Assembly: GCA_016207515.1 (NCBI GenBank)
Contig: JACQPN010000023.1
Span: forward strand, 1 to 64,000
Reading direction: 5' to 3'
Length of the DNA stretch: 64,000 nucleotides
DNA from: Euryarchaeota archaeon
Lineage (GTDB): Archaea > Thermoplasmatota > SW-10-69-26 > JACQPN01
Every line of letters begins with the position of its first letter. Position 1 is the first letter of the stretch. The translations under genes were made by a program, and so were the position numbers. The notes under the pieces were generated by a model. It worked only from the letters and a program-made list of their open reading frames with translations, made no database searches and was not told where the DNA came from. Positions 4,490 to 13,031 of this stretch are shown in pieces.

Positions 4490-5506
4490 ATGGAAGTCTG
4501 CAACGTATGCGGCCGCTCCTTCTCCGAAGGGGCGTTCTGTCCCGACCACCCGGGAGAAGCGGCGCGGCTCGACGCGACCGCCGCCATAGGCGACGGGGCC
4601 CGCGTGTTCGCCACCAACCTCGTGCCGTTCCTGGCTTTCTGGGTCGTGCCCACGGTCATCGGGACCGCGATCTCCGTGATGGCGGCCGAGGCGGCGTTAC
4701 GGCCCAGGGACGCGCGGGATTACGTCGCGGATCTACGCTCCGTCTTGTACCTTTTCATCGGTGGCGTCCCGAGTTTCCTCGTCACCATGATGTTCGCGGG
4801 CGGGACCGCTGCCATGGTCAAGGACGGCCTCGACCAGCGCCGCGTGAGCGTGAGGTCGGGGCTCGACGCGATGACGAGGCGGCTGCCCGACCTCTTCTGG
4901 TCGGCGGTCATACTCGGCGTCCTGTTCCTTCTCGCCGTCACCGTCTTCCTGCTCCCGGCGATCGTTTTCAGCGTCATAGGCATCGAGGCCATGGCGGCGG
5001 TCTTCGCGATCCTCGGCGCACTTTTCGCTTTCATGTCGGTCTTCGTGATACTCCATTGGTTCATGTTCACGCCGTTCGTGGCGGCGTTGGAGCGCGTCAA
5101 ACCGCACCGGACGCTGGTTGAAAGCAAGCTCTTCGCGGCGAAGAACCGGACCGGCGGCTTCACGGTCCTTCTCATAATCGTCGGCCTTGTCCTGGCCATC
5201 GCCAACGCGTTGACAACGGATGCCATCTCGCAAGGCTTCCCCCCGGACACGCGTCTTACGGCGCGGGAAGCGCTCTCCGGCGTCTTCCTCTGGGTCGCAA
5301 CGCCACTCTTGACCGTGATGGCGGCGACCCTGTACATCCGGATGCGGACCCCCACGCGCCTCTACGAGCAGTTGCGGCCCCAGGTCGTCACCGCGTGCCC
5401 TTCGTGCCACGCGCCGATGAGTTACGCGCCGTCGGAAGGGCCTCTACGAGTCAAGTGCGGATCCTGCGGGCGGGAAGGGATATTGAGACCGGGGCGCCCT
5501 TCGTAA
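4490..5506 (+). CDS. Polytopic membrane protein with zinc motifs at both ends
   Basis: A 338-residue protein. The first residues, MEVCNVCGRSFSEGAFCPDHPG, give a CxxC...C..H metal-binding knuckle. Five or six hydrophobic helices follow between roughly residues 30 and 285 (for example NLVPFLAFWVVPTVIGTAI and LFWSAVILGVLFLLAVTVFL). The tail has a C4 zinc ribbon, CPSCHAPM followed by CGSCG. The core resembles DUF4013-like or YciC-type membrane proteins of archaea, but I cannot assign it. Upstream in-frame ATGs exist at 4424 and 4478. The TATA-like box at 4454-4466 places transcription near 4485 and favours 4490. The gene is convergent with folB. Confidence 0.75.
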   Translation: MEVCNVCGRSFSEGAFCPDHPGEAARLDATAAIGDGARVFATNLVPFLAFWVVPTVIGTAISVMAAEAALRPRDARDYVADLRSVLYLFIGGVPSFLVTMMFAGGTAAMVKDGLDQRRVSVRSGLDAMTRRLPDLFWSAVILGVLFLLAVTVFLLPAIVFSVIGIEAMAAVFAILGALFAFMSVFVILHWFMFTPFVAALERVKPHRTLVESKLFAAKNRTGGFTVLLIIVGLVLAIANALTTDAISQGFPPDTRLTAREALSGVFLWVATPLLTVMAATLYIRMRTPTRLYEQLRPQVVTACPSCHAPMSYAPSEGPLRVKCGSCGREGILRPGRPS

Positions 5507-8089: not shown

Positions 8090-8737
8090 TCATCCTCCCC
8101 CCGAGGAAACGAGGCGGCCGCTAGGATCGGCGGGAAACCCCTTGATGGTCACTTTGCGGCCCGACACTGTGACGCGGCCCTCGGCGATCAAGTGGATGGT
8201 GAGCGGGTAGATGACGTGCTCTTGTTCGAGTATCCGCTTTCGAAGCGTCTCCACCGTGTCGCCGTCGAGGACCGGCACCGCGGCCTGGAGGATTATCGGG
8301 CCGGTGTCGACGTCCTCTTCGACGAAGTGGGTCGTGCATCCCGTGATCTTCACGCCGTATTCGTGCGCCTTTGCCTGCGCGTCGAGGCCTCGAAACGCGG
8401 GAAGCAGGCTCGGGTGGATGTTGATGAGTCTTCCTTTGAGCGGGCGAACGAACGCGGGCGTCAGGATCCTCATGTACCCGGCGAGTGCCACGAGGTCGCA
8501 GTGCGACTCGCGGATGAGGGCGAGCATCTTGGCCTCGTGGTCGGGCCGGGCCAGCCCCTTGGGGTCTACGAAATGCGCCTCTATCCCATGCTTTTTCGCC
8601 CGCACCAGTGCCCCCGAATCCCGGTGGTCCGAGAGGACCAACCCGATTCTCGCCTTCGTTTCGCCACGGTCGCAACTGTCGATCACGGCCTGGAGATTCG
8701 TCCCGGCACCGCTTGCGAGGAATGCCACTTTCAGCAT
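8090..8737 (-). CDS. purN: Phosphoribosylglycinamide formyltransferase
   Basis: A 215-residue GAR transformylase using 10-formyl-tetrahydrofolate, third step of purine synthesis. The N-terminal phosphate loop FLASGAGTNLQAVIDSC, LAGYMRILTPAF, the catalytic INIHPSLLPAFRG with its conserved Asn-His, and HFVEEDVDTGPII with the catalytic Asp are all present. It is the first gene of the folate operon, which makes sense because it consumes a folate cofactor. Length is the usual 200-215. Confidence 0.93.
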   Translation of the reverse strand: MLKVAFLASGAGTNLQAVIDSCDRGETKARIGLVLSDHRDSGALVRAKKHGIEAHFVDPKGLARPDHEAKMLALIRESHCDLVALAGYMRILTPAFVRPLKGRLINIHPSLLPAFRGLDAQAKAHEYGVKITGCTTHFVEEDVDTGPIILQAAVPVLDGDTVETLRKRILEQEHVIYPLTIHLIAEGRVTVSGRKVTIKGFPADPSGRLVSSGGG

Positions 8738-11965: not shown

Positions 11966-12039
11966 GGGCTCGTAGCTTAGCTAGGTAGAGTACTCGGCTC
12001 TTAACCGAGGTGTCATGGGTTCAAATCCCATCGAGCCCG
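11966..12039 (+). tRNA. tRNA-Lys (CTT anticodon)
   Basis: A full cloverleaf can be drawn. The acceptor stem is GGGCTCG/CGAGCCC, the D-arm GCTT...GAGT, the anticodon stem CTCGG/CCGAG with loop CTCTTAA (anticodon CTT), and the T-arm ATGGG-TTCAAAT-CCCAT, with discriminator G at 12039. There is no intron and no encoded CCA. A TATA-like block (ctttaaatac, about 11887-11896) lies 70 bp upstream, farther than usual, so a short leader is possible. A small hairpin (GGCGA-CTTT-TCGCC) lies just upstream. The gene is followed directly by a hairpin array. Confidence 0.95.
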
Positions 12040-12290
12040 TCGACCGGTCCCCAACGGTCCCTCGGTCGACGGCATGGTGACGTGGCGCGTGTGCGCCGAT
12101 GTCACCGCAGCCCGTCGACGGGGCCCCAACGGTCTACACCGTCGACGGCGAGATGACGAGGCCCGAAGGCCGAAGTCATCGAAGCCGCCACTTGGGCGCT
12201 GAAGCGCGACGGCAGCGGGTCAAGTGGACGAGGGCGCAGCCCGAATCCACGATGACCCGAGCCTTCGCCGCGCGAAGGCGAGCGTCCTTT
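12040..12290 (+). ncRNA. Tandem hairpin array after tRNA-Lys, candidate structured RNA
   Basis: No credible protein is encoded here. The DNA is a chain of hairpins: GTCGACCG/CGGTCGAC (12039-12070); GGTGAC/GTCACC enclosing GGCGC/GCGCC (12076-12106); CCGTCGACGG with itself (12112-12148); GATGAC/GTCATC enclosing GGCC-CGAA-GGCC (12152-12180); CCACTTG/CAAGTGG (12188-12227); GTGGA/TCCAC enclosing GGGC/GCCC (12224-12250); and GCCTTCGC/GCGAAGGC (12261-12279) with an outer GAC/GTC. The first two and next two hairpins form two 75-bp tandem copies (from 12039 and 12114) that differ by compensating changes, for example GGTGAC/GTCACC versus GATGAC/GTCATC. Three inner loops are tandem GA/GA. Read-through from tRNA-Lys would transcribe it. 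Confidence 0.55.
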
Positions 12291-12329
12291 CCCGTCGTGT
12301 CCGCGCGTACATACAAGTACCTATATTTG

Positions 12330-13031
12330 TCACACCGCTCTCTTCAGCATCGTAAAAGCCGTCAACGCGATGACAATCGCCGCCGCCAGGTTCAGCGCCA
12401 CGAACACGCCGCCGACCTCGACGCCCCCCATGTAGACAGCGACGTAATTGAAAGCGCCGTGGAGGATGACCGCGACTGCGTAGAAGGGAAGGAACCCCGC
12501 CGTGAAGCCAAGGCCCGTCTTATGCCATTTCCAAAGCCCGACCGCGGCGATCGCCGAGGCGGTCGCGTGGATGAGCATGCTCGTGTACGCCCGCACGAGC
12601 ACCGTCGCAAGGTAAGCGATTATGCCGTCCGTGGCGAGCGCCTGCACCTGGTAGAGAAGGTTCTCGGTCGCAGCGAATCCAAGTCCCGCGGCGGCACCGG
12701 CGGCAAGCGCATGCCGCCCCGACCGCATCCAACCGATCGCCAGGGCGGCGGCCATGACTTTTGCGGCTTCCTCCACGACCGGCGCCACCAGTATCGCGCC
12801 CGCGAAATCGGCGTCGACTTGGAAGAGCGCGACGGCGAGCGGGATGAATGCGACGTTGAACGCGATGGCCAGGAACGCGGACCCGAGCGCCGCCGCAAGG
12901 AGGACGGACCCGAGGACCATCCAGTCGAAGACGCCGCCCCGGCGTTCCCTGTGTATCTGGCCGAGGAAGTAGAACGCGGGGGCGAACGCGAGGAGGACTA
13001 TGAGCCATAGCGTGAAGTCCTCCGCGGCCAC
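12330..13031 (-). CDS. PrsW-family membrane metalloprotease-like protein
   Basis: A 233-residue polytopic protein with about eight hydrophobic segments. The family motifs are visible: VAPVVEEAAKVMA (EExxK) near residue 85, LGFAATENLLY near 116, HATASAIAAVGLW near 153 and LHGAFNYVAVYM near 189. PrsW relatives cleave membrane-bound anti-sigma factors in Bacillus. In archaea the substrate is unknown, so only membrane protease activity is inferred. The gene is divergent from coaBC; its 3' side faces the hairpin array. Confidence 0.82.
   Translation of the reverse strand: MAAEDFTLWLIVLLAFAPAFYFLGQIHRERRGGVFDWMVLGSVLLAAALGSAFLAIAFNVAFIPLAVALFQVDADFAGAILVAPVVEEAAKVMAAALAIGWMRSGRHALAAGAAAGLGFAATENLLYQVQALATDGIIAYLATVLVRAYTSMLIHATASAIAAVGLWKWHKTGLGFTAGFLPFYAVAVILHGAFNYVAVYMGGVEVGGVFVALNLAAAIVIALTAFTMLKRAV

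Follow-up and report, generated by a model that had tools for sequence, protein, structure and literature searches.

Several known repeat classes resemble parts of the locus described here. The rtT repeats of Escherichia coli tyrT are tandem units downstream of a tRNA gene, each with that tRNA's 3′ end. REP sequences, Rickettsia palindromic elements and the small dispersed repeats of bacteria are short, non-coding, palindromic and dispersed; to our knowledge, the copying of a host tRNA's end has been described for none of them. tRNA genes are classic landing sites of mobile DNA. Their 3′ ends serve as attachment sites, where an integrating element leaves behind a copy of the tRNA end. Casposons are integrated at tRNA 3′ ends by the Cas1 enzyme (PMC6614799), and the haloarchaeal PATEs/SMRs cause no target duplications (PMC3119063).

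The window, the whole 64,000-nt stretch of DNA analysed here, carries an array of hairpins directly after a tRNA-Lys(CTT) gene. The same genome contains archaeal 16S and 23S rRNA. The following large reading frame, which runs on the minus strand, has its end at 12330, so the hairpins lie within a short intergenic stretch. On balance, we think it somewhat probable that the array belongs to a genome-wide family of foldback (palindromic) DNA repeats at gene ends, above all at tRNA genes, and that its units arise and spread as DNA. The features are as follows.

11966-12039, plus strand: host gene, tRNA-Lys(CTT); the repeat unit begins with its final 6 nt, AGCCCG
12037-12072, plus strand: unit 1, hairpin A; the stem begins with the terminal CCG of the tRNA, and the loop box TCCCCAACGGTCC is at 12048-12060
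12076-12106, plus strand: unit 1, hairpin B; GGTGAC/GTCACC with inner GGCGC/GCGCC, this copy having no GA/GA loop
12109-12114, plus strand: start of unit 2; the final 6 nt of the tRNA, AGCCCG, recur here as a direct copy
12112-12148, plus strand: unit 2, hairpin A; loop box GCCCCAACGGTCT at 12123-12135
12152-12180, plus strand: unit 2, hairpin B, the genome-wide core; GATGAC-GA-GGCC-CGAA-GGCC-GAA-GTCATC
12217-12258, plus strand: third hairpin; GGGTC/GACCC and GTGGA/TCCAC with a GA-flanked inner stem GGGC/GCCC; z about -2
12259-12281, plus strand: last hairpin, GCCTTCGC/GCGAAGGC; GA on both sides and no real outer stem

The sequence-only reading had proposed two tandem 75-bp units starting at 12039. 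Alignment confirmed the two units and moved their start into the tRNA gene, to 12034: the final AGCCCG of the tRNA (12034-12039) recurs at 12109-12114 and opens both units. Positions 12034-12059 and 12109-12134 are 92% identical at a spacing of 75 nt, and 12065-12089 and 12141-12165 are 80% identical, 76 nt apart. The compensated stems were seen as that reading had given them, with GGTGAC/GTCACC (12076-12106) becoming GATGAC/GTCATC (12152-12180) and the inner GGCGC/GCGCC becoming GGCC/GGCC. Its three GA-flanked inner stems (12158-12174, 12230-12244 and 12259-12281) were correctly placed, although the third has hardly any outer stem. The stretch 12036-12330 folded at -153.3 kcal/mol, compared with -123.0 ± 5.2 for shuffled sequences (z = -5.85; none of 200 shuffles was as good). 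Taken alone, the two 75-bp units had z values of -4.2 and -4.5, and the later hairpins about -2.

Among 4227 Rfam family models, gathering-level matches in the window were to tRNA only, and around the array nothing was significant at E values up to 5. A kink-turn was rejected: it has a three-nt bulge 5′ of tandem G-A pairs on one strand, whereas the inner loops of the array are GA/GA or GA/GAA, with a single extra A 3′ of the GA pair. A guide RNA was also rejected because the geometry does not fit. The loop box CCCCAACNGTC, tried as a motif common to the arrays with one mismatch, was just moderately enriched (19 and 16 occurrences, versus 7 and 4 in the reversed control) and was not relied on.

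With the array as a query against its own genome, its hairpin was matched next to tRNA-Ala and within the 23S-5S rRNA spacer; the trailer of tRNA-Lys(TTT) resembles the tRNA-Lys(CTT) array. The stem GATGAC..GTCATC with 5-35 bases between its arms occurs 38 times in the genome, many times just past a tRNA, and not once in the reversed control. Two elements were seen in the rRNA operon, one in the 23S-5S spacer (L102, ~5009-5034) and one in the leader of the spacer tRNA-Ala (upstream of 8385-8456).

We surveyed both strands of the flanks of 53 tRNA genes, 260 nt on each side, for GA hairpins, defined as an outer stem of at least 5 bp, GA, an inner stem of at least 2 bp, a loop of 3-6 nt, GA, GAA or GGA, and the outer stem again. 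The genome counts rest on these flanks and on sampled stretches, with one genome plus samples as comparison sets. On the strand leaving the tRNA there were 37 hairpins (22 downstream and 15 upstream); the opposite, inward strand had three (two downstream and one upstream). The difference is significant (two-sided binomial test, P = 1.9e-8), also for the 5′ flanks alone (P = 5.2e-4). The densities were 1.60 per kb on the 3′ side and 1.09 per kb on the 5′ side, more than 100 times the 0.010 per kb per strand of control DNA (six hairpins in 300 kb sampled over the genome). In the window, no hairpin of this kind was found outside the tRNA flanks. When the dinucleotide in the rule was varied, the tRNA flanks gave 33 hairpins with GA/GA, two with TC/TC and 0-1 with each of the others.

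The loops of the genome's hairpin set were GNA in 15 of 19 triloops and GNNA in 8 of 17 tetraloops. Loops of these two types closed by at least two G-C pairs form extra-stable DNA mini-hairpins (PMC4686876). Most loops of the set belong to this class; hairpin B of unit 2 in the window has the loop CGAA. Whether RNA or DNA parameters were used, the calculated folding energies favoured the GA strand. Therefore, the energies do not separate the DNA and RNA hypotheses, and the argument from the loops rests on the published DNA measurements.

Many tRNA genes also have their own ends repeated nearby. Queries made from the terminal 30 nt of each tRNA found a direct copy of its 3′ end within 260 nt downstream for 24 of the 53 tRNAs (4.4% when the ends of other tRNAs were used as the null). 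Upstream, nine of the 53 had a direct copy of their own 5′ end (null, 0 of 159). The exact copies in this genome were 11-29 nt long. Among the 22 longest exact 3′-end repeats, 12 stopped at the discriminator base or at +1 and two more were one base short; the 5′-end copies stopped at tRNA nucleotide 1 or 2. Gene tRNA-Ser(TGA) had copies of 24, 18 and 13 nt at +90, +202 and +315. A partial inverted copy of the tRNA end was frequent between the direct copies. In that of tRNA-Ser(TGA), GA stands where perfect complementarity would need TC, as read from the sequence, and tandem GA mismatches therefore result there.

On the strand leaving the tRNA, the full unit thus consists of the tRNA end, hairpin A, a partial inverted copy of the tRNA end, the mini-hairpin core (stem, GA, inner stem, GNA or GNNA loop, inner stem, GA, stem) and a direct copy of the tRNA end, which goes no further than the mature tRNA boundary; units may be tandem. 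As in rtT repeats, the repeat unit includes the 3′ end of the preceding tRNA, at 24 of the 53 tRNAs and over 6 nt in the window array, and we claim no homology with rtT. The tRNA-Lys(CTT) array is a reduced two-unit member that recopies just 6 nt of the tRNA and falls below the threshold of the own-end survey. It is included because it has the hairpin core, units of two hairpins and a start within the tRNA.

The same foldback layout was found at the 3′ ends of protein genes of this genome, where the terminal codons and the stop are repeated (L103, ~1000-1240; L104, ~1000-1130; L106, ~880-1130; L097, ~560-790; L310, ~1920-2050). One GA hairpin core lies in frame inside a reading frame of 281 amino acids that looks FKBP-like (L105, 1020-1044, minus strand), and it encodes GRDEMTKQSEVIE. 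Multi-copy dispersed repeats with the same GA/GNA core were also seen in unrelated lineages, namely Ruminococcus RUG12221 (L156, L161, L196), Aenigmatarchaeota (L170, L179) and Patescibacteria AH-259 (L163, L187), with no adjoining tRNA within the stretches seen.

Similar sites that keep the pairing, whose absence from relatives would have counted against the sequence-only reading, were found elsewhere in this genome as well as in relatives and haloarchaea. Relatives from the same order, class and phylum also have own-end copies with hairpins between them. Matches to the core KGACGAGCGNAGCGAGTCM were found in at least 118 stretches of GTDB genomes, many of them haloarchaeal and several adjoining tRNAs. 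A tRNA-Lys(CTT) of a same-order relative, 99% identical to the one in the window, has no array. In genome G021, a tandem array of about 2.5 long units lies downstream of tRNA-Lys (L022, 1490-1564, minus strand). It contains exact inverted tRNA-end copies of 17 nt, and its stems are wholly replaced between units with the pairing kept.

Haloarchaea have the same plan downstream of their tRNAs, with a mostly constant copy of 22 nt. At loci chosen only as high-scoring tRNAs, 15 of 32 had an exact 3′-end copy of at least 12 nt, and none had a 5′-end copy. Among 64 haloarchaeal tRNAs (pre-selected loci included), 46 had a copy, with 30 of the 46 beginning at position -22 or -21 relative to the tRNA 3′ end. 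A 66-nt trailer piece matched 81 of the 98 genomes of one haloarchaeal family, a match that may partly be due to the tRNA end. When 30 loci of this piece were fetched, 28 were downstream and sense of a tRNA, and two had no tRNA nearby. An inner motif is common to Lys, Glu, Leu, Arg, Thr, Pro and Trp loci, and the copied end follows the host tRNA. In the inner hairpin, 89.8% of cells were paired and 24 were double-change cells; none of 500 shuffles was as high, a figure that is not a probability as the sequences are related. The GA hairpins showed no strand bias there (6 versus 4). Copies at orthologous tRNA-Lys genes stay exact, and several tRNA-end copies have decayed. In the trailers L370-L399, the inner motif CAGGGA..GACCGTGG was seen across many tRNA species, with one position pair changed from T/T to G/A. 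In L154, L157, L159, L162 and L164, the palindrome recurs in very similar contexts, GAGGACGAGCGNAGCGAGTCCTCG, which look like coding sequence.

The results above demonstrate the layout, the outward orientation of the GA strand, the duplication of the host gene's end and the loop classes. A DNA foldback process might produce them as follows. An outward-pointing 3′ end, free at the boundary of the gene, would be extended through stable single-strand hairpins by self-primed or template-switched synthesis. Rejoining of the extended strand would then duplicate the gene end and leave the tRNA intact. The compensated stems could be products of hairpin-templated copying, which would not require an RNA function. 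Stem-loop synthesis from two terminal base pairs has been documented for human Pol theta (PMC11292364), and a DNA foldback is therefore physically reasonable, although this is no proof for archaea.

The sequence-only reading had taken selection on RNA structure as the simplest account. The conserved pairing with compensatory change stands, but in this genome the account is not the simplest one. If the hairpins acted within the tRNA transcript as a trailer element of the pre-tRNA (in processing, stability, termination or as an sRNA), RNA selection would keep the pairing. The strong fold of the array agrees with this, and so do the double changes in the haloarchaeal trailer stems. A role in RNA is possible and strongest in haloarchaea, where the element is found downstream only, in the sense direction, and is conserved across a family. 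For the whole family we nevertheless consider it unlikely. The GA strand points outward on both sides of the tRNA, and upstream it is therefore the template strand, so that the tRNA transcript there would have TC/TC and not GA/GA loops. The GNA and GNNA loops belong to extra-stable DNA classes, the same layout occurs at protein-gene 3′ ends with one core inside a reading frame, and the nearly identical tRNA-Lys(CTT) of the relative lacks the array; each of these favours DNA over RNA. The lack of an Rfam match and the decayed haloarchaeal copies also speak against an RNA element. Compensatory changes in such repeats need not imply a functional RNA.

A non-autonomous mobile element seems a rather doubtful explanation. 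A putative tRNA-targeting enzyme would make a fixed target duplication, with the hairpins as its recognition sites. The constant starting distance of the haloarchaeal copies in all tRNAs is in its favour, as is the inner motif shared by seven tRNA species while the copied end follows the host, and a constant copy of 22 nt would fit an enzyme that reads the T-arm. However, the copies in the genome of the window are anywhere from 11 to 29 nt long, and simple insertion does not account for the inverted copy, whose sequence likewise follows that of the host tRNA. With positive controls, this genome had no match to the Y1 transposase (PF01797), on which a REP/RAYT or IS200/IS605 assignment would turn, or to Cas1 (PF01867), on which a casposon or CRISPR array would. 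A search for plasmid, phage and viral carriers also found no match. It is very improbable that the copies are attL/attR scars left where tyrosine integrases had inserted plasmids or viruses. Such integration at tRNA 3′ ends would leave a tRNA-end copy, but the copies here are just ~50-180 nt away with hairpins between them, and they occur at 5′ ends too, at many tRNAs, and with inverted copies. The DNA foldback reading has its own difficulties. No enzyme was found for it, the window array recopies 6 nt only, and the energies favour the GA strand with RNA parameters too. In haloarchaea, the conserved inner motif (81 of 98 genomes), the restriction to downstream sense positions, the lack of strand bias and the exact tRNA-Lys copies could mean function.

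We tentatively suggest that one DNA process, common to at least two archaeal groups, may make direct-inverted-direct copies of gene ends at mature tRNA boundaries via single-strand mini-hairpins and leave the tRNA intact. In the genome of the window, nearly half of the tRNA 3′ ends and about one-sixth of the 5′ ends have own-end copies with stereotyped hairpins, and haloarchaea have the same plan. This would be a rich natural archive of a DNA process acting where genes end. Such a process can be tested in tractable haloarchaea.

Our search of the open-access literature found no description of archaeal tRNA-end foldback repeats, and a foldback repeat family at tRNA ends in two archaeal groups is apparently undescribed. 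Like the rtT repeats of E. coli tyrT, the arrays are tandem units after a tRNA that contain its 3′ end. The rtT repeats are long and confined to one locus, whereas here dozens of tRNAs have short units with tandem-GA mini-hairpins and inverted copies, and 5′ ends are involved too. The tRNA-end foldbacks share with bacterial palindromic repeats and haloarchaeal PATEs/SMRs that they are short, non-coding, palindromic and dispersed. Unlike those repeats, which are not described as copying a tRNA end, they copy the end of their host tRNA, in a genome without a Y1 transposase. Casposons also target the end of a tRNA gene and are flanked by a direct duplication; they differ in their 14-15 bp duplication, large coding element and terminal inverted repeats, and in needing the Cas1 that was not found here. 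Snap-back synthesis and templated insertions by Pol theta (PMC11292364) similarly give inverted copies of adjacent sequence. Its hairpins have just two terminal base pairs, and as this is a human polymerase in break repair, we liken the archaeal foldback to it purely by analogy. Precedents thus exist for each ingredient, namely palindromic repeats, tRNA-end repeats like rtT and tRNA-targeting integration; the open-access literature searched gave no account of archaeal foldback arrays with a copied host-tRNA end.
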